A stretch of DNA of 22,902 nucleotides. Origin: a virus. Below are positions 2,225 to 22,785 of the stretch, one piece after another (position 1 is the first letter of the stretch; each line of letters starts with the position of its first letter). The stretch covers positions 1 through 22,902 of the IMG/VR virus record IMGVR_UViG_3300031578_000358. One strand, given 5' to 3'. A program made the position numbers and the translations under genes. The notes beneath the pieces were generated by a model. The model searched no databases and was not told where the DNA came from. It saw only the letters and a program-made list of their open reading frames with translations.

Positions 2225-2665
2225 ATGACTCCACAACAAGCAACAAGCGGATACATACCAGCGACAGTTGGATTTCATACCGCAGAAGATTGGTGTAAAA
2301 AATGCAGAAAGGCTATGGAAGATAATGATCCTAACGTTGAGGAAATCTGCACAAAATGCCAGAAAGCACTTACGAAGGAGAAGAGGCTGAACATGAGTAC
2401 TCTTATAGATAGAATAGATAAGTTATTGATTGATGAAATGTCAGTTGTTGGTGGTAGCTATATTGCTGGCACCACAATTAGTGTCATTGGGTCACAGCAA
2501 ACAAGAGCACATGGTGACTACACTCAAGCAATAGATATAATGCAGCAAAAGGAACCTTATAACAAAAATGCAGTAAAGTTTAATAAAATACTGGGTGCTT
2601 TTGTTCCAAGAGAACAACAACCAGATGTTGATTTAGAGGACGGTGAGCATGACTATATTAAGTAG
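2225..2665 (+). CDS. Zinc-ribbon module joined to an IDKLLI-leader module
   Basis: 146 residues. Residues 24-45 hold C-x2-C-x14-C-x2-C, a likely zinc ribbon or knuckle. Residue 57 is a Met that opens MSTLIDRIDKLLIDEM, the same leader that begins other genes here at their true start; its I-D-E|M resembles a prohead-protease site. An AAGGAG at 2375-2380 lies 12 bases before that internal ATG (2393), so a second start giving a 90-residue product is plausible. The ATG at 2225 itself has only a weak ribosome site. The remainder (residues 72-146) is unrecognised. The gene could be a fusion of two small genes, a nested pair, or a precursor cleaved into two. Confidence 0.65.
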   Translation: MTPQQATSGYIPATVGFHTAEDWCKKCRKAMEDNDPNVEEICTKCQKALTKEKRLNMSTLIDRIDKLLIDEMSVVGGSYIAGTTISVIGSQQTRAHGDYTQAIDIMQQKEPYNKNAVKFNKILGAFVPREQQPDVDLEDGEHDYIK

Positions 2666-4082
2666 AATTGATCTAGTTACTGAACAAGATGAGTTAATTA
2701 AGGAGTCCGGTATTAGAAATATATCTAGTCTGGGTAAAGAATATAAAACAGCAGAGATTTATTTTCATAAAGACCTTGATGGTGTTACGTCTGCAATAGG
2801 AATGAAAACTTATTTAAAAAGATATGGTATCAAGACTGTTGCTGCTCATCCAATTCAATATGGTGGTGAAGAGTATGCTGTTCCGAAGCCAAAAAATAAA
2901 ACACTTGCAGTCATGGTTGACTTTGCTCATGGTAAACCAACTATGAAAATTCATACCGACCACCATGATAATCAGGTTGGTGTAGAAAAAGGAACAAGTA
3001 CTTCATTTAAACATACGCCATCTAATGCTGCTCATATATCACAAACACTTTCACCGAATGACTTATTCCCACCATCAGATGTAAAAGTTATTAGTACTGT
3101 TGACTCGGCTGATTTTGCAAGAAATAATATGACACCAGATGATGTAATGAGAGCAGTGTTTACACTTGATAAATCTAAAAGTGGTAAAGTTAATAGAGAA
3201 ATGATGGGTTACGCAACAAATTCATTAGTGCTAGCTTATAAAAATAAGCCTGATTTTTTAAGTAGTCTTGTTATGCGATCAGAACCATCACTACTATCAA
3301 TGTATAATATTACAAAGAAGCTTGCTGTAGAAAATGGATATAAAACACCAGCAGATGTTGAAGCCGGAAAATTTGATTATGTAAAACAGCAAGCTGGAAA
3401 GTCAATGGGTAAAGGAAAAGTATCTGATGTTAAGGGATTAAAGAGTGGTGCTCAAGTTATAGTGGGGAATACTATAGTTCAGTATGGTGGTGGTGGTATG
3501 TTCAAAGGATATGATAGATACACACCATTTAAAAATAATCCTGATGCACAGTACATAGTAATTGCTTGGCCTATGGGTTTGATTCAAATATCAAAAAATC
3601 CATTTATTGGCAGAGATAACCCTTATAACTTAGGTGACCTTGCTCAAAAAGAAGTACTTGGAAAATTTAAAAGTAAAATGATGAGTAAGATGATTGATAT
3701 GGAATCAGCAAAGAGAATGTTCGAAATGGATATTGAAAAGAAGAAAATAGAAAACGCCATGGGATTTACTTGGAAGGATATGGTAGCTTTATATGATAAG
3801 AATTTAAGTGGTCTTGGAAAAGATAAAAGCACTTATAGAGAAATGCAACAAGACATTATGAATAAGCCATATAAGAACTTATCATACAAACAAAAAGATA
3901 TTTTAAAGAGGATTCAGATTCCTCTTTGGGATTTGGTACAGGCTGGTTCTGGTGGTCATAAAGATATTACAAATATTTCAGGATTGAATTTCTGGGGTAA
4001 AGGGTATGTAGATGATCTTATGAAACCAATGATGGTAGCGGCCGCTGAGGCGATGAAGGATAAAGAATTAAAGGAAAGATAA
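2649..4082 (+). CDS. DHH-superfamily phosphoesterase-like protein
   Basis: 477 residues from the ATG at 2649, chosen over the GTG at 2643 because AGAGGA at 2635-2640 is well spaced only for the ATG. The leader MTILSRIDLVTEQDELIKES holds an I-K-E|S site. DHH-family metal ligands follow: H40-K-D42-L-D44-G (motif I), VDFAH near residue 91 (motif II) and D104-H-H-D107 (motif III), then a TVDSADFA segment near 150 that could be motif IV. The family includes RecJ, nanoRNases and cyclic-dinucleotide phosphodiesterases, all two-metal phosphoesterases. The C-terminal 250 residues do not look like a standard DHHA1 domain to me, so the substrate cannot be named. It overlaps the next start as TAATG. Confidence 0.8.
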   Translation: MTILSRIDLVTEQDELIKESGIRNISSLGKEYKTAEIYFHKDLDGVTSAIGMKTYLKRYGIKTVAAHPIQYGGEEYAVPKPKNKTLAVMVDFAHGKPTMKIHTDHHDNQVGVEKGTSTSFKHTPSNAAHISQTLSPNDLFPPSDVKVISTVDSADFARNNMTPDDVMRAVFTLDKSKSGKVNREMMGYATNSLVLAYKNKPDFLSSLVMRSEPSLLSMYNITKKLAVENGYKTPADVEAGKFDYVKQQAGKSMGKGKVSDVKGLKSGAQVIVGNTIVQYGGGGMFKGYDRYTPFKNNPDAQYIVIAWPMGLIQISKNPFIGRDNPYNLGDLAQKEVLGKFKSKMMSKMIDMESAKRMFEMDIEKKKIENAMGFTWKDMVALYDKNLSGLGKDKSTYREMQQDIMNKPYKNLSYKQKDILKRIQIPLWDLVQAGSGGHKDITNISGLNFWGKGYVDDLMKPMMVAAAEAMKDKELKER

Positions 4083-4852: not shown

Positions 4853-5341
4853 ATGAAATTTTTTGAAGAGTTAATGATTGAAGAGTACTTAAACGAATCT
4901 AAGAAAAAGAAAAAATATACATGTATTAGTGGTAAGCGTGGATGCTATTGGGAAGGTGATAGACCAGTGAAACAAAAGGATGGTAAAATTAATTGTCCTG
5001 TATGTGGTGGACCCGCTGGTAAAAATAATGCACGTCAGTTGAAGGATTCTATCAATGAGGCTCCCATTGGATCAAAGGGCTGGACACAAAAGTCAGTTGA
5101 AAAGTTTGGAAAGACTATTGGTAAGTCACCACAAGATAAGGGATTTTTTGATGCTTGTGTGAAAAGAATGGAAGGTAAAAAGGGATTTGATAAAGAAAAA
5201 GCACAGGGATTTTGCGCGAGTTTGAAAGACGCATCTTATGGTTCACCAAATTGGAGAGGCAAAGATAAACCAAAGAAGCAGGCTAAGGCTGATGTAAAGA
5301 AGGATAGATTTAAAAAACAATTACCTAAGGGGAAAAAGTAA
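4853..5341 (+). CDS. Zinc-ribbon/basic protein with leader and internal cleavage-like site
   Basis: 162 residues. The leader MKFFEELMIEEYLNES (L-N-E|S) is followed by five lysines and a ribbon with Cys at 24, 31, 48 and 51. A second I-N-E|A site at residues 67-70 sits exactly between this ribbon and the C-terminal domain, which has conserved-looking elements: GWTQKSVEKFGKTIGK, GFFDACVKRM, AQGFCASLKDASYGSPNWRG. The tail is very basic (Lys-rich) and could bind DNA. I have seen similar FCASLKD...WRGK segments in phage hypothetical proteins, but no function is known to me. TAATG coupling to the next gene. Confidence 0.7.
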   Translation: MKFFEELMIEEYLNESKKKKKYTCISGKRGCYWEGDRPVKQKDGKINCPVCGGPAGKNNARQLKDSINEAPIGSKGWTQKSVEKFGKTIGKSPQDKGFFDACVKRMEGKKGFDKEKAQGFCASLKDASYGSPNWRGKDKPKKQAKADVKKDRFKKQLPKGKK

Positions 5342-5511: not shown

Positions 5512-6759
5512 ATGAAAGTTAGAGATTTTCTCATATCAGAAATGATTCTGGCACGAAGTTCTATCAATCCACAGGTTCCACCTGGTATATTTGTAACTGG
5601 CACTAGATATAAAAGAGCTGATTACTTTAATAGGCTTACCAATTATGATACTATTTGGAAAAAAGACGATAGTAACAGTTGGTTTTGGGATTGGTTTGAT
5701 TATGCTGTTGGTGAGGATAATCCAGAAAACTATCATAAAAGTTTGAAAGATTTAAAGCATTTATTTCCAGATGATGTATGGAATGAAATTTGGTCACATG
5801 TTCGCAAAAAGCCAATTCCAGATGAAGAAGTAAATAAAAATCATCCTTGGAAAAACACAACAGATATAACAGGTTCGGGTGGTGAAGGCGACTTGGGAGA
5901 AAACATATTAATGAAAGAATTGTTTGAAAAATATTTATCAGAAGCTGGTATGATTACAGGTGGTTATCCTGATGATGGATCAACTGGGCCCGCTAGTGAT
6001 GATGATAGACCACCAGGAAATATACTTGTTGCTCCAAGATACGAAAGAAGTGATTACTTTAATAAACTAACATCTTACAATACAATCTGGAAACATGATG
6101 AAAAGGGTGGGTGGACTTGGGATTGGTTTGAAAATGCCACTGGACAAGATGATCCTGATAACTATGATAAAACTCTTGGGAATATGAAAAAGTTATTTCC
6201 AGATGATACATGGGAAGCTGCGTGGAGCGCTGTTCGTAAAAGAGAGGTTCCAAGTAAAGAAGTTGATATTAGATTTGATGATAAGGGACAACCATATCGT
6301 AAATCTGGTGATGTTTTGGGTAAACATGATGATGCTCAAGGTGGTGAGTCCGACAAGGAAGCAGAAATTCCAAGTGAGTTGGATTCAGATGATAAAGGAG
6401 TAACAAACGAAATGAGTGTACTAGATAGAATTGATAAACTTTTGATTGATGGTTGTAAGAAAAAGAAGTTAACTGAGTCAACTGTAGCTAAGACAATTCT
6501 AAAACAAATAAATGCTATAGACAAATGGGCTCTTCAATCATGGGGAGCAAAGAATTATGTATCTAGTGATAAGAGTATTCAATTTGATGTAAGAGGTTCT
6601 AAGTTTCGCGGTAGAGTTATTATAACTTATGATAGAGGACCAGATACATATGTAGTCGAACTTGGACAGGTTAAAAACTTAGATTGGAAACAAAAGTATA
6701 TGATGAAAAATATATTTGCACAAGACTTAGTTAATGTCTTGGACCAACAAATTGGCTAA
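5512..6759 (+). CDS. Three-module protein: duplicated W-rich domain plus C-terminal module, each with a leader
   Basis: 415 residues. Module 1 starts MKVRDFLISEM (I-S-E|M) and carries a Trp/Asp-rich domain at residues 32-107. Module 2 starts at Met134 with MKELFEKYLSEAG (L-S-E|A) and carries a clear second copy of that domain at 176-251; shared blocks include DYFN[RK]LT, WDWF and LFPDD. Module 3 starts at Met301 with MSVLDRIDKLLIDGC...KKLTES (L-T-E|S) and ends in a domain built around WGAKNYVSSDKS...YVVELGQV, which resembles a small domain common in phage hypothetical proteins. Shine-Dalgarno-like GGGAG and AAAGGAG lie 11 bases before the internal ATGs (5911, 6412). It may be a fusion of three small genes, a precursor cut into three parts, or a set of nested starts. 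Confidence 0.7.
   Translation: MKVRDFLISEMILARSSINPQVPPGIFVTGTRYKRADYFNRLTNYDTIWKKDDSNSWFWDWFDYAVGEDNPENYHKSLKDLKHLFPDDVWNEIWSHVRKKPIPDEEVNKNHPWKNTTDITGSGGEGDLGENILMKELFEKYLSEAGMITGGYPDDGSTGPASDDDRPPGNILVAPRYERSDYFNKLTSYNTIWKHDEKGGWTWDWFENATGQDDPDNYDKTLGNMKKLFPDDTWEAAWSAVRKREVPSKEVDIRFDDKGQPYRKSGDVLGKHDDAQGGESDKEAEIPSELDSDDKGVTNEMSVLDRIDKLLIDGCKKKKLTESTVAKTILKQINAIDKWALQSWGAKNYVSSDKSIQFDVRGSKFRGRVIITYDRGPDTYVVELGQVKNLDWKQKYMMKNIFAQDLVNVLDQQIG
5605..5832 (+). repeat. Duplicated Trp-rich domain, copy 1
   Basis: Encodes residues 32-107 of the three-module protein. It aligns over its full length, nearly without gaps, with copy 2 at 6037-6264; shared landmarks are DYFN, LT-Y-TIW, WDWF, LFPDD, W...VRK and a final [KE]EV. 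Confidence 0.8.
6037..6264 (+). repeat. Duplicated Trp-rich domain, copy 2
   Basis: Encodes residues 176-251. Conserved with copy 1 in protein but well diverged in DNA, so the duplication is old. Confidence 0.8.
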
Positions 6760-7337: not shown

Positions 7338-8065
7338 TGCTTCTCTTCTGTTGATTCTTCTTCTAATTCTTTAGATTTTGGATTTGAATCTTTATTATAT
7401 TCATACATTTCCAAAGTTGCCCACCATTTTAATATTTCATCCATATACTTTTTAGCGTCGGCTTTGCTTGCTTTTTTAGATAAGTACTTATGAAATGTTT
7501 CTGTTAAATCTCCATCACTTTCATCATAGTAATCTCTAAATATTTGGCATCCTATATCTATATTAATATCAACGTGATATAACTGTTCTAAAGTTATTCC
7601 TTTCATTTTTTCAATATGCCACTTTGCAAATACTTGCATCAGTCCTCTTGCCAATACTTCTCCTTTACTATTTTTACTTCTAGCTAGAGGATTTAAGTCG
7701 CTTTCTTTTTTCATAATAGCAATGATTAATTTCTTTGGCAGACCATATTTCTCGTGCGATCTATCAACTGCTTCTGCTATTACTTTAGCAGTACTTTCGT
7801 TAAACCTTCCATTAAGGTGTTGAATAAACTTCCATGTTGGGATGGCATTTTGTTTTTCAACATATCTGATTTCATGTTTTATTTTTGGTTCTGGTGATGG
7901 TGGTATATTATTATCAATTACTTCCTGTATGTATAGTGGTCCATGAAAGTATTGATAGCTAGCCCATACAGTAAATGATGATATTACAAATAAAAGTAAA
8001 CAAATCCTAAATAGAATTTTAAATATATTGATAGTTTTTGATGAGTACTTTGTTGTATATAACAT
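7334..8065 (-). CDS. Membrane-anchored lytic transglycosylase (SLT domain)
   Basis: 243 residues. A Lys-rich N-terminus precedes a membrane segment at about residues 14-37, so the enzyme is a signal-anchored periplasmic protein. The SLT fold follows: the catalytic Glu is E121 in IAIMKKESDLNP, with the family's GLMQV motif at 141-145 and a helix with an IGCQIFRDYYDE core. The enzyme would cleave the glycan strands of peptidoglycan, either for lysis or for local remodelling. The C-terminal tail is acidic and low complexity. TAATG coupling to the upstream gene, whose last codons supply the ribosome site. Being in the replication operon and not with tail genes is unusual for a virion muralytic enzyme. 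Confidence 0.85.
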   Translation of the reverse strand: MLYTTKYSSKTINIFKILFRICLLLFVISSFTVWASYQYFHGPLYIQEVIDNNIPPSPEPKIKHEIRYVEKQNAIPTWKFIQHLNGRFNESTAKVIAEAVDRSHEKYGLPKKLIIAIMKKESDLNPLARSKNSKGEVLARGLMQVFAKWHIEKMKGITLEQLYHVDINIDIGCQIFRDYYDESDGDLTETFHKYLSKKASKADAKKYMDEILKWWATLEMYEYNKDSNPKSKELEEESTEEKH

Positions 8066-8592
8066 TAATTATTCTCTTCCTCTTCATCTTCTTCTCTTAC
8101 GAAGCATCCATCGTTATATCCATCGTCATATCCTTCCTCTTTACCTTCATTATATCCATCACGGTGACCTTCTTCATATCCACGTTGTTGTCCATCTGAG
8201 TATCCTTCTTCTCTTCCATTCTCATATCCTTCGTTATATGCGTCCTCATTATCATCATTCCAATCATCACGTCTTGTTGTATCATTTTCTTCAAGAGCTT
8301 TCATATAACCCGTTGCGTGTCCACTATCTTCACCAAGATAAAATGATTCATCAATAAGATCAAGTAAAAACTCGTGTTGATCGTCATTAAAGATACGTAC
8401 TCGTCTTATTTTATCTCTCATTTCATCAATACTTTGGCACTTGAGTACCTTCATTTCATGCCTAAATCTTAATGAATCAACATATTGTTTTGATTCACTA
8501 AGACTCATTCCTGTTAGTTCCCTATGTAACTTGATAGCTTTAATTATTTCACCTGCTTTTACATAATCCATAACACTAATCATTTCTGTCAT
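8065..8592 (-). CDS. L7/L12 C-terminal-domain-like protein with Gly/Tyr tetrapeptide repeat tail
   Basis: 175 residues, started after an AGGAG with a six-base spacer. Residues 8-48 match the ribosomal L7/L12 C-terminal domain pattern (GEIIKAIKLHRELTGMSLSESKQYVD); in L7/L12 that domain contacts translation factors. Residues 113-165 form a repeat with a four-residue period, mostly x-x-G-Y or E-x-G-x (YNEGYENGREEGYSDG), and the end is a run of acidic residues. Similar small L7/L12-like proteins exist in bacteria, but I do not know this fusion. Sits between DNA polymerase and the transglycosylase. Role unknown; a link to the translation machinery is inference. Confidence 0.65.
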   Translation of the reverse strand: MTEMISVMDYVKAGEIIKAIKLHRELTGMSLSESKQYVDSLRFRHEMKVLKCQSIDEMRDKIRRVRIFNDDQHEFLLDLIDESFYLGEDSGHATGYMKALEENDTTRRDDWNDDNEDAYNEGYENGREEGYSDGQQRGYEEGHRDGYNEGKEEGYDDGYNDGCFVREEDEEEENN

Positions 8593-18210: not shown

Positions 18211-18414
18211 TTATTTCCAGAAACTAATATCTTCCATAACTTCTGAATTTCTTTCAGCTCTGAAAATAGCATCATTTATTTGTTCTCGTGTAAACAGAGC
18301 GTTAACATTTTCACCGTCTTCAGTGACTACTCGACATGGATAATAATAGTTACTCCTTCCAAATTTTCTTTCTTTATTTTCCACTAATTCATCTATTCTA
18401 ATTACAGATTCCAT
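18211..18414 (-). CDS. Small phage protein of unknown function
   Basis: 67 residues. The central YYYPCRVVTEDGENVNALFTREQINDAIFRAERN segment (quoted in parts: YYYPCRVV, NALFTREQI, RAERN) resembles a small protein seen in many phage genomes, whose role is unknown to me. The N-terminus MESVIRIDELVEN weakly resembles the RIDKLL leader class and has L-V-E|N. Starts by TAATG overlap with the upstream gene. Confidence 0.65.
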   Translation of the reverse strand: MESVIRIDELVENKERKFGRSNYYYPCRVVTEDGENVNALFTREQINDAIFRAERNSEVMEDISFWK

Positions 18415-19835
18415 TACTCCTCCTTTACAGTTATTACAAATGTCTTATCTGGATTAATTGAGACGTTTGCTCTTCTCATAAACTTACGATCTACTAATAT
18501 TGGTGAAACATCAATTCTTTCATCTAATGTAAAATCAACATCTCTATATATAATATTATCAAATGTTATATCACATGATGTTTTTGGTCTTTTTTCACTT
18601 TCTTTTCCGGCTCCCCATACTTCTACTGTACCCTTGAAAACACCTTTAAATTCCTTTCCATGAGTAACCCATTTTATAGTTTTCTTTTCTTCATCAATGG
18701 TGAATTTATCTGCATGTAAAACACAGTCAACTCCATTACCTGTATCAAATTTAGCAACGAAGTCGTGGCCGTTTATTTTCATCATTTCTTTCCACCCAAT
18801 TTCTTCGGCTACCTTTTCCCAATTTTTTCTATCACTTGCCCAACTTAGTACTTTACCAACTATATTAGTTTTTGTTGCTTTTTCTATACCTTCTGTGCCT
18901 GGTGAACTGTTTACTTCTATGACTAGTGGTTTATCATCTTTAATAATATAGTCAACTCCACCCCATAAAGCACCTGTGGCTTTTGAAGCTTTAATACATA
19001 TTTCTTTTTCATTATCAGATAGTTCGTATGATTCAATTTTACCACCTTGTGAATAGTTACTTCTGAAGTCATTTTCTATTACGTATCTTTTCATAGCTGC
19101 AATAACTTCATCACCAAGAACATGTGCTCTGACATCAAATTCCGTTTTAATGTATTCTTGTAGAAGTAGTTCAGTGTCTGATTCAACTTTCCAAATAAGT
19201 TGAAGCATTGATCTTAATGATGCCATTGATTCTACAAGAATAACTCCAACACCTTGTGATCCTTGGAGAGTTTTGACTATATATGGAAATTCATTACCAA
19301 GATATTCTACAGCAGCATCAATACCCCTTTCACCTTGAATAAGTACTGTTTTGGGACAGTCAACACCTGCATCAGCAAGATTCAATATTGTTCTATACTT
19401 ATCAGAGCATATTTCAATTGTTGTTCTGTTGTTTATACAAAATATATTTCCTCTTTCTAATTGGGAAATAATATTTCGTGAGTTGAACTTACCCAAAGAG
19501 GAACCTCTGTTTATAGCTATGGTCTTATCTTGGTGAACATGAAACCCTTTGGGATCACCTAAGTTATATGCGGTATAACTACCATCTTCATTCCTTTCTA
19601 ATTTACCAGTATCAGAAAGTAGAATATAACTTGGAATACCCATTTTTTTACATTCGTTGTCAACTCTACTAGCAGTCTGAAACAATCCCTCACCGTGTTT
19701 TTTTGACTCAGTCGTGAGAACTAAAACATTTAAATCAGAATCTTCGTCCTTATTACCCTCATTCATTAATTTTATTTTCTTAAATTGATCTGCGGGTCCT
19801 AAGGATTCAAATATGAAGTCATTGAACTTACTCAT
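18414..19835 (-). CDS. RimK-like ATP-grasp ligase fused to a retropepsin-like (RimB-type) domain
   Basis: 473 residues. Leader MSKFNDFIFES has I-F-E|S. Residues 35-330 form a RimK-like ATP-grasp enzyme: YIVKTLQGSQGVGV (K188 and glycine loop), LLLQEYI, RAHVLGDEVIAAMKR, and the metal-binding end LVIEVNSSPGTEG. The last 120 residues resemble the small retropepsin-like family (COG4067 type): FVAKFDTGNGVD, where D364-T-G carries the catalytic Asp, and PILVDRKFMRRANVSINPDKTF. In bacteria RimK adds glutamates to ribosomal protein S6 and the RimB protease reverses this; here both activities appear in one chain. The substrate in this phage is unknown. Overlaps neighbours as ATGA and TAATG. Confidence 0.85.
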   Translation of the reverse strand: MSKFNDFIFESLGPADQFKKIKLMNEGNKDEDSDLNVLVLTTESKKHGEGLFQTASRVDNECKKMGIPSYILLSDTGKLERNEDGSYTAYNLGDPKGFHVHQDKTIAINRGSSLGKFNSRNIISQLERGNIFCINNRTTIEICSDKYRTILNLADAGVDCPKTVLIQGERGIDAAVEYLGNEFPYIVKTLQGSQGVGVILVESMASLRSMLQLIWKVESDTELLLQEYIKTEFDVRAHVLGDEVIAAMKRYVIENDFRSNYSQGGKIESYELSDNEKEICIKASKATGALWGGVDYIIKDDKPLVIEVNSSPGTEGIEKATKTNIVGKVLSWASDRKNWEKVAEEIGWKEMMKINGHDFVAKFDTGNGVDCVLHADKFTIDEEKKTIKWVTHGKEFKGVFKGTVEVWGAGKESEKRPKTSCDITFDNIIYRDVDFTLDERIDVSPILVDRKFMRRANVSINPDKTFVITVKEE

Positions 19836-20026: not shown

Positions 20027-20250
20027 GGGTTTACTTTCCTTAGGTGTGGTTCTGGTTTTAAATATCCAATTTTTTTATCCAGATAATCTTGAATAAAAAG
20101 AATATCATCGTCATCTAGTTCCTCTACTGCTGATGATATGAGAGCCACCACTTGTTGTATATCAACACCGTCATTGGCTAAGTCAATGGCCCTAATCAAA
20201 TCACCTCTTAAGTCATCCTTTGACTTCTGTATGAACTCCCTTAATCTCAT
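20023..20250 (-). CDS. Small helical acidic protein with leader-like start
   Basis: 75 residues, AAGGAG eight bases before the ATG. MRLREFIQKSKDDLRG resembles the leader class but has Lys where the cleavage Glu should be, so it may be targeted without being cut. The body is a probable helical bundle with an acidic EELDDDD turn. No family recognised. Confidence 0.6.
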   Translation of the reverse strand: MRLREFIQKSKDDLRGDLIRAIDLANDGVDIQQVVALISSAVEELDDDDILFIQDYLDKKIGYLKPEPHLRKVNP

Positions 20251-21668
20251 ACTAGTCTCCTTATATAATCATCAATTATATCTTGGTCTTTTACGTCGTT
20301 GTCCATGATCCACGTAGTTGTATTTTTAATAATTTCACCAACTTTAGGACCGGGTTTTAATCCAGTTATTGTCATAACATGGTTTCCATCAACAAGCTTC
20401 ATTCTTTTTGTAACTTCTTTTGTACCATATTTATTTTTTATTTCAACTGCTTTATCAATAATTTTTTCAAATTCACCTGCATGCATAAAAGCTTCGCCTC
20501 TAGCAAACTCATCAGCCTGACCTACGGCGACAAGAACATCCCAGTTATCATCATTGGCAAGCTTGGCAATTTTAGAGGGTTTCATATCAAGAATCTTATG
20601 AAACTTCATGTGGTTACCAACTCCAAAGATAAGAGCATCACGTTCTTTATTACTCATCTTTAATCTATCAGCAATAGCATTAACTAGTTCTACACTTTTC
20701 CTTGCATGACGCAGGTATCTTGGTAGACCTTGGTCATGTGATAAAGAAACTCCCTTGCCAACATCATGTAGTAAAATCGCTAGATTTTTAATTGGGTTCG
20801 CTGTTTTACTTTGTTTTAAAGCAGCCATAACGTGGCTGAATACTGTACCGCCTTCACCTCTTGTTTCTGGGTGATGTTGTAAGTTTTCTCTAAACCACTT
20901 TAAGTTCATAACTTCTGGCAGAATAAGCCTAAGAATTTTAAGGTCTCCAAGTATCTGAATATACTCAGCAAACTTCTCGCCACTCTGGGCTGCTGACTTC
21001 ATTAACTCATCTTTAATTCTTTCCGGTGCCAAGCTTAAAATATTTGGTGAAAGTTTCTTCGCAGCTTTTTTGGTTTCAGGATCAATTTCGAATCCAAGTT
21101 TTGAAGAGAACCTAGCAAGGCGCATCATACGTAAGTAGTCTTCACCAAACCTTTTTAGTGGGTCTCCCACGGTGCGGAGCACTTTGTTAACAATATCTTT
21201 CTTGCCGTCGAAGAAGTCAATGATCTCTCCTTTCGCATTAATTCCCATAGCATTAACTGTAAAATCTCTGCGACCAGCGTCATCCTCAAAACTTCCTGTG
21301 ATTTTAACGGTTTCGGGCCTTCGCCCATCAATATACTTTCCATCATTTCGAAACTGGGCAACTTCAAAGCTAAATCCTCCTTCTTTTACAACTACTATAC
21401 CGAAGTCTTTTGACTTACCAATGTCATAAGTCTTAAACATTTTTTCAAGTACCTCCATCGGCATATTTGTTGCCATATCAATATCATTGGGTTGGTTACC
21501 AAGAGTTATATCCCTTACACAACCACCAACTAAGTATGCCTTATATCCAGCTTTATTAATCTTCTGAAGTAATTTGACTCCAGCAGCAAGCTCTGAATTT
21601 TTATTAACATATTGCATCCAGTCCTTAAACATTTCTCTTGCTTCATATAGATGGTTTGTAAATTTCAT
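20247..21668 (-). CDS. cca: tRNA CCA-adding enzyme / poly(A) polymerase family with HD domain
   Basis: 473 residues. The leader MKFTNHLYEA (L-Y-E|A) precedes a class II nucleotidyltransferase: AYLVGGCVRDITLG (46-59), the catalytic carboxylates in NDIDMAT (about 61-67), RRDFTVNAMG, then the neck and body element GEDYLRMMRLARFSSKLGF. An HD metal site follows (HVMAALKQSK, then LLHDVGKG; NHMKFH later). This is the full bacterial CCA-enzyme plan with HD phosphohydrolase, where HD can act on the 3' phosphate or 2',3'-cyclic phosphate of tRNA. It could repair tRNA 3' ends cut by host defence nucleases; that role is inference. The leader implies capsid delivery. Confidence 0.9.
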   Translation of the reverse strand: MKFTNHLYEAREMFKDWMQYVNKNSELAAGVKLLQKINKAGYKAYLVGGCVRDITLGNQPNDIDMATNMPMEVLEKMFKTYDIGKSKDFGIVVVKEGGFSFEVAQFRNDGKYIDGRRPETVKITGSFEDDAGRRDFTVNAMGINAKGEIIDFFDGKKDIVNKVLRTVGDPLKRFGEDYLRMMRLARFSSKLGFEIDPETKKAAKKLSPNILSLAPERIKDELMKSAAQSGEKFAEYIQILGDLKILRLILPEVMNLKWFRENLQHHPETRGEGGTVFSHVMAALKQSKTANPIKNLAILLHDVGKGVSLSHDQGLPRYLRHARKSVELVNAIADRLKMSNKERDALIFGVGNHMKFHKILDMKPSKIAKLANDDNWDVLVAVGQADEFARGEAFMHAGEFEKIIDKAVEIKNKYGTKEVTKRMKLVDGNHVMTITGLKPGPKVGEIIKNTTTWIMDNDVKDQDIIDDYIRRLV

Positions 21669-22267
21669 TACAAAAACTCTCTTCCTAATATTCCATTTTT
21701 AGCTCTAAACATTCCTTCAACTAAGTAGTAAGAATTACATTGGAATATTATTTCATTTTTGGATTGTACTGCGTCTTTTAAATTTTTATTTGTATATGTT
21801 TTAAATATTTTATCTATTATTTCATCTATTTCATCTTCTTCATTATAGTATCTAAAATAAACATTTAGGTCATCTATTTTTGGTGACCAAAAGTATTTGT
21901 ATTTGCTTATTGGAAAGAATATATATGGTTGTCCATAAACATCTGCTTGACTAATATCACCAGTACAAAATACTGTGTTTTCTTGTCTATCAAAACCAAA
22001 ATTTTCTTTAAACATCTTATTAAATTTTGATCTTATACCGACTTTTAATGTACCTCTTGGTTTTCTATTAATTTTTGTTGACTCTTTTGAAAAAACATTG
22101 ATTTTTTTCTCTCTACCAGTAAAAATGAAACCATTGGCTCCTTTTATTTCTCTTAAAAATGGGGCGCAATTTTTTCTTAGAATTGGTATTACTTCACTTG
22201 TTATTTTATTATTAGCATTCTCCATTTCTTCTCTATCAAATATATTAAGATATTCAATTAGTCTCAT
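21668..22267 (-). CDS. ADP-ribosyltransferase-like protein, short paralogue
   Basis: 199 residues. Paralogue of the product at 16879 without its acidic insert: NCAPFLREI, R52 (TGR), TVFCTGDIS (98-106), GQPYIFFPISKYKYFW and KNEIIFQCNSYYLVE (E172) line up in order. The same R...S...E logic supports an ADP-ribosyltransferase-type fold as a guess. The N-terminus MRLIEYLNIFDREE resembles the leader but lacks the (L/I)-x-E ending. The overlaps are TAATG downstream and ATGA upstream. Confidence 0.55.
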   Translation of the reverse strand: MRLIEYLNIFDREEMENANNKITSEVIPILRKNCAPFLREIKGANGFIFTGREKKINVFSKESTKINRKPRGTLKVGIRSKFNKMFKENFGFDRQENTVFCTGDISQADVYGQPYIFFPISKYKYFWSPKIDDLNVYFRYYNEEDEIDEIIDKIFKTYTNKNLKDAVQSKNEIIFQCNSYYLVEGMFRAKNGILGREFL

Positions 22268-22785
22268 TTCATAACCTTTTCTAGTTGTTTGATTGTATCA
22301 TTGGTGTTTTTATGTAAAATACCAATACCACCTTTGCTTTTCCATTGTCTAATATTTCTATCTGAATCATCTATAAGTATATGGTTTGGTGATGCATAAT
22401 TTTGTTTTTCAACAGCAATTACTAAAAGAGCTTTACTAGAATAAGATGAACCGATATTTTTACTTAACCAATTTTTCTTTCCTTCTATCGATATTGGTCT
22501 GGATATACTATCACGTGGTGTTGCAGATAGAATTGTTACATCCTCATTTTTTAAATAATTCCAGAGTTTTTTACCATCTCTTGTCCAATTCATTTGACTC
22601 CACCACTTTTCACCCATTTTATTGATCTTGCTATATTTTTCTGGTCCTAACTTTTCCCACTCTCTAAAATCTTTTAAATTATATAATTTATAAACCGCTT
22701 CCATAAAATCTACTATAACACCATCCATATCAAGGAAAATTTTTTTCTTATTTTCATCTTCTTTTATATATTGTTTAAATTTCAT
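22264..22785 (-). CDS. HAD-superfamily phosphatase (5'-nucleotidase-like)
   Basis: 173 residues. The leader MKFKQYIKED (I-K-E|D) is followed by all HAD motifs: I FLDMDGVIVDF (D19, D21), II ILSATP (S87), III K near 103 in EGKKNWLSKN and IV HILIDDSDRNIRQW (D139, D140). Size, the DMDGV motif and a small cap fit the deoxyribonucleotidase/NT5C-like group, which dephosphorylates nucleoside monophosphates. Substrate specificity cannot be read from the sequence. ATGA overlaps at both ends. Confidence 0.85.
   Translation of the reverse strand: MKFKQYIKEDENKKKIFLDMDGVIVDFMEAVYKLYNLKDFREWEKLGPEKYSKINKMGEKWWSQMNWTRDGKKLWNYLKNEDVTILSATPRDSISRPISIEGKKNWLSKNIGSSYSSKALLVIAVEKQNYASPNHILIDDSDRNIRQWKSKGGIGILHKNTNDTIKQLEKVMK

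Follow-up and report, generated by a model that had tools for sequence, protein, structure and literature searches.

How does one reading frame of an uncultured T4-like phage come to hold three segments that each resemble a capsid-targeting leader, two of them in its interior, and what is made from it? The frame lies in a complete IMG/VR record of 22,902 bases, which we analyzed as a whole and refer to as the window; it is a fragment of a T4-superfamily phage whose family-B DNA polymerase shows about 28–29% identity to its pelagiphage and cyanophage counterparts. In T4, the prohead protease gp21 cleaves at L/I-X-E, and a 10-residue capsid targeting sequence (CTS) is enough for packaging (PMC9026906). 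The ORF at 5512–6759 on the plus strand codes for 415 amino acids, runs from ATG to TAA without interruption and is laid out as follows (↓ marks a predicted cut):

5512–5541, plus strand: leader 1 (residues 1–10), MKVRDFLISE, an (L/I)xE site with the cut predicted after E10 (I-S-E↓M)
5581–5832, plus strand: module 1 (residues ~24–107), a W/D-rich domain
5893–5899, plus strand: Shine-Dalgarno-like TTGGGAG (-7.3 kcal/mol) upstream of the internal ATG at 5911
5911–5943, plus strand: leader 2 (residues 134–144), MKELFEKYLSE, with the cut predicted after E144 (YLSE↓A)
6013–6267, plus strand: module 2 (residues ~168–252), a paralogue of module 1 with homologues in L003, L008 and L097
6268–6411, plus strand: variable linker, its frame kept in three genomes
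6394–6400, plus strand: Shine-Dalgarno AAAGGAG (-8.2 kcal/mol) upstream of the internal ATG at 6412
6412–6477, plus strand: leader 3 (residues 301–322), MSVLDRIDKLLIDGCKKKKLTE↓S, with the cut predicted after E322
6478–6756, plus strand: module 3 (residues 323–415), phrog_9437-like, with stand-alone homologues

The three leader-like segments that an earlier note on this DNA had placed at residues 1, 134 and 301 are all present, the internal ATGs at 5911 and 6412 being residues 134 and 301; its predicted cuts at residues 10 and 322 stand, and its middle cut shifts by three residues, from 147 to 144. The domain duplication that it saw is equally real: modules 1 and 2 share 52% identity across 88 amino acids, with module 3 unrelated to either. 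Residues 324–414, in module 3, match positions 2–92 of the 98 of phrog_9437 (E 7e-4), and this module is predicted to adopt an alpha-beta5-alpha fold (AF2 pLDDT 87), for which a fold search returned no PDB match at E ≤ 0.001, the best viral matches being uncharacterized proteins. The AF2 model of module 2 (pLDDT 41) is too low in confidence for use, and PDB sequence searches with the modules gave sub-threshold matches or none.

Leaders were scored with a PSSM built from the hand-aligned leaders of the related contigs G001 and G002, in which many genes begin with leaders of this kind, in two classes, MKF..YI.E and L(D/E)KIDKYL.E; a first PSSM obtained by unsupervised EM had drifted, mixing the two classes, and was replaced by the hand-aligned ones. 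Leader 3 scores 19.5; out of 63,823 internal positions scored in relatives a single one is higher, the homologous internal leader of G001. Among ~325,000 internal position scores from 928 ORFs, the top four comprise leader 3, once for each of its three genomes, and the internal leader carried by a second fused ORF of the window:

2225–2665, plus strand: ORF with a Cys-rich N-terminal part, an internal leader MSTLIDRIDKLLIDE↓M at ATG 2393, and a module

This internal leader scores 18.8 and is preceded by an internal Shine-Dalgarno sequence of -8.8 kcal/mol; the same fusion is seen in G001. Leader 1 scores 10.4 at residue 1. Leader 2, at 10.7, is matched by five of the 63,823 internal positions and falls within what shuffled window proteins reach (PSSM maxima averaging 9.9), so that on motif score alone it is weak; its counterpart is MKQDKIIGHFDKYLSE↓S, the N-terminal leader of the G001 protein (L008). 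The (L/I)xE sites of the ORF number five (residues 10, 130, 139, 144 and 322), which is the chance expectation (1.2% per residue); hence, we do not count their total as evidence and regard their placement alone as telling, all five falling within leaders or linkers and none within the modules.

The earlier note had proposed a comparison with relatives in which the modules might be separate genes, and both the separate and the fused states do exist. L002 is identical to the window sequence. A single frame joins module 2 to leader 3 and module 3 in L003, whose 5′ part is missing, and in L008; module 2 shows 86% identity in L003 and about 59% in L008. The latter sits in G001, a 120 kb contig, and has a single module 1/2 domain, module 1 being missing, so that its N-terminal leader occupies the place of the internal leader 2 of the window. 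This module 2–3 fusion is found in three genomes only, from different samples, and all the relatives are metagenomic contigs. Four phages encode module 3 as a gene by itself, each with a different leader, namely MGFKNYITE↓A (L010), MKFGNYLLE↓G (L049), MGVINKINSYLTE↓A (L051) and MIDILNKIETYLIE↓G (L052), and in Ochrobactrum phage OC, L011, L013, L015 and L020 it is a separate leaderless gene starting at the position of the LTE↓S cut. Leaders are thus exchangeable between cargo proteins, module 3 bearing four different ones in some relatives and none in others. A module 1/2 domain stands alone in L097 (3258–3791, leader ..LFEALEFLNE↓T); the C terminus of this protein reads ..KNESLLNRIDDIII, with a terminal stump ..NESLLNRIDDIII that resembles leader 3 and looks like its remnant after loss of module 3, and a search of the L097 contig for module 3 did not find it. 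As a separate observation, the module 3 domain also occurs inside very long ORFs (>780 aa) with several unrelated segments (L019 7092–9446 and L017 6831–9422); in L019 these segments are separated by recurrent R/K-N-P motifs, possibly another style of polyprotein.

We consider it fairly probable that the ORF encodes a head-cargo polyprotein cut by the prohead protease, as the earlier note had suspected, with internal starts adding shorter leader-first products; separate leader-bearing homologues, the in-frame fusion and the protease of G001 all support this reading, in which proteolysis is the predicted step. Acting like the T4 CTS, each leader would dock the chain to the core of the prohead; the protease would cleave behind the (L/I)xE sites that end at residues 10, 144 and 322, setting three small proteins free in the head to be ejected along with the DNA. 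The ATGs at 5911 and 6412 would start additional shorter chains, the leader again coming first, which could yield an excess of the downstream modules. The fusion itself may have originated from separate leader-bearing genes through a duplication (modules 1 and 2) and lost stop codons. Packaging, cleavage, internal initiation and ejection are steps that we infer from sequence.

The gp21-type protease encoded by the close relative G001 is a Peptidase_S77 member (104.8 bits at a cut-off of 27) in which the conserved His and Ser segments can be recognized by eye. Its gene adjoins portal-, scaffold- and capsid-like genes, and the products of the scaffold- and capsid-like genes that follow it have LxE motifs at their N termini too. 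No protease gene was matched in the window, a 22.9 kb fragment, and a protease family search of six further relatives, whose contigs are fragmentary or too divergent, found none; a protein search with the G001 protease gave matches in two large contigs only.

An independent, convergent line for predicted cleavable junctions comes from the family of a neighboring ORF:

4853–5341, plus strand: ORF with a leader MKFFEELMIEEYLNE↓S (YLNE↓S), an in-frame Zn-ribbon cassette, a SINE↓A junction (SINE↓APIG...) and a mature domain

Its homologues in G001, G002 and L052 have YLNE, YLSE or YLKE directly joined to the mature domain, without an insert. Across the 47 loci of the family, at least seven phages feature unrelated inserts that separate the leader from the mature domain, and a hydrophobic-x-E junction is retained in all of these insertions: INE↓A in the window, LTEGLMLE↓A in L049/L071, ISE↓A in L051/L073, VNE↓A in L080 (where the insert is a C2H2-type finger), LNE↓K in L097, VSE↓A in L102 and ITE↓A in L056/L105. 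Four of the inserts were compared pairwise and showed no similarity. In L097 the family member comprises a leader, a module, a full internal leader lacking Met, and the mature domain. Since the junctions of the window ORF, L080 and L097 offer no usable ATG, release of their mature domains would need cleavage. Scanned against bacterial and archaeal genomes, this family gave no relative.

The alternative that survives best, and which we nonetheless regard as unlikely, is that these are nested genes: the modules would be made mainly from three in-frame starts, each product being trimmed once, and the read-through fusion would be a tolerated by-product of lost stops. It draws on the Shine-Dalgarno-like sequences that the earlier note had pointed out ahead of the internal ATGs, which are indeed strong: equal strength is seen before 1.1% of 729 in-frame internal ATGs for the one at 5911 and 0.5% for the one at 6412, against a weak -2.2 kcal/mol at the ORF's own start. 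Moreover, L008 retains the sequence preceding leader 3 (-10.6 kcal/mol) despite encoding other residues there, and T4 offers a precedent in gp21, whose internal start at Met45 is essential (PMC9026906). Such persistence supports the note's suggestion that the modules once were, or still are, separately started, and so the polyprotein and the separate starts probably both occur. Against nested genes as the main route, the linker before leader 3 keeps an open frame with whole-codon indels in three genomes; its dN/dS is about 0.35 in the close pair (window and L003), and in the distant pair (window and L008, 33% identity) it is unconserved. The cargo ORFs without a usable junction ATG (window 4853, L080 and L097) likewise speak for cleavage. 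Fusion and internal initiation both appear to be in use.

Less probable again is an ordinary multidomain fusion in which the internal leaders are unprocessed relics of the joining of genes. Gene fusion is common, and the low score of leader 2 fits such a history, but leader 3 is under purifying selection as strong as that on the folded module (dN/dS 0.04–0.06 in comparisons with L003 and L008), whereas the adjoining linker is not, and the hydrophobic-x-E junctions recur in independent insertions. That the repeated leaders are multiple core-binding tags providing avidity, with the first one alone removed, seems to us very improbable: in the T4 CTS the targeting residues (4 and 7) are separate from the processing residues (8 and 10) (PMC9026906), which makes targeting without processing possible, but the (L/I)xE sites are kept exactly at the leader/module borders and the leaderless homologues start at the cut. 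An assembly or sequencing artefact deleting stop codons, a worry raised by the purely metagenomic contigs, has a negligible chance and was rejected, as independent contigs agree on the same fusion in three divergent sequences (window/L002, L003 with 86% identity in module 2, and L008 with 62% identity).

If the ORF is such a polyprotein, each of its single components is known from T4, with the arrangement setting it apart. The internal proteins IPI–IPIII and Alt of T4 are likewise small cargo proteins with a short N-terminal leader (~10–20 aa) ending in (L/I)xE and served by a gp21-type protease; however, their leaders have been described at N termini only, one per chain, whereas here they recur between modules. 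The T4 core proteins gp22, gp67 and gp68 also have several prohead-protease sites per chain, but there cutting reduces the scaffold to peptides, most of which are lost from the head (PMC9026906), whereas the sites of the ORF border intact modules. Head and ejection proteins of SPN3US and phiKZ share the maturation of packaged proteins by a prohead protease at multiple propeptide sites; unlike the leaders described here, their propeptides are ~80–250 residues long, with S/A-x-E-type sites, and only one mature product results (PMC5694885). A parallel is offered by polyvalent proteins (Iyer et al. 2017, PMC5512222), packaged chains that each unite several effector-like domains and were there likened to viral polyproteins, but they have embedded peptidase domains or remain uncut, and none was described with capsid targeting leaders between its domains; further, that class is recognized by effector or enzyme domains in one chain, and a Pfam search of all our modules returned no domain above threshold. 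Finally, phrog_9437 matches along the whole of module 3 but is usually a stand-alone leaderless gene, for example phiOC_p058 of Ochrobactrum phage vB_OspM_OC. In the open-access papers that our searches found, the CTS is described as an N-terminal propeptide only, and a leader-punctuated phage polyprotein is in none of them.

Between 16879 and 22785 on the minus strand, and at 2643–4082, the window codes for enzyme-like proteins that begin with capsid-targeting-like leaders:

20247–21668, minus strand: CCA-adding/poly(A)-polymerase-type nucleotidyltransferase with a capsid-targeting-like leader
18414–19835, minus strand: RimK-like ATP-grasp protein with a capsid-targeting-like leader
22264–22785, minus strand: possible HAD-type phosphatase, recognized by eye, with a capsid-targeting-like leader
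2643–4082: DHH phosphoesterase-like protein with a weaker leader

This suggests that leader-bearing enzymes are packaged in the head as well. Elsewhere in the window, the minus-strand gene at 8065–8592, which lies between those for the polymerase and a lytic-transglycosylase-like protein, codes for a protein ending in a repeat run rich in Gly, Asp/Glu and Tyr (DGYNEGKEEGYDDGYNDG), and such repeats are also seen in G001, G002 and L061. The downstream part of ORF 2225–2665 is continuous with the 1980-type gene in L097, L099 and L103.

Close to this ORF, at 2160–2213, lies an in-frame UGA recoding candidate (TGA at 2181–2183). The motif CP[EKP]G.K[WY]-TGA-[PQ]....CVP occurs in eight contigs (window, L008, L089, L097, L098, L099, L101 and L102) and in several different genes. 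Its UGA is aligned with a Cys in L103, and in L098, L099 and L101 the frame beyond the UGA is homologous to the uninterrupted L103 protein. An RNA hairpin starting ~18–20 nt 3′ of the UGA shows two compensatory changes; TGA elsewhere in these genomes is an ordinary stop. The motif is a candidate for selenocysteine insertion or programmed readthrough; an Rfam search with its RNA gave no match. Separately, G001 (L023–L025) carries 35 tRNA genes, one with the anticodon CUA, called tRNA-Pyl by ARAGORN, which could be an amber suppressor.

Beyond this locus, we are evenly poised on the broader proposal that a widespread group of T4-like phages builds leader-punctuated cargo polyproteins, with modules captured between a leader and the next domain and freed by the protease in the capsid, such that leader plus cut site would form a portable cassette in the evolution of injected proteins. 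If this is true, repeated punctuation would be a further role of the T4 targeting tag, which is known as a lone N-terminal propeptide, and a single frame would let a phage load several injected proteins. The many leaders in these genomes would then permit a sequence-only listing of phage head cargo, and the leader cassette might be used in designing multi-protein loading of T4-like capsids.
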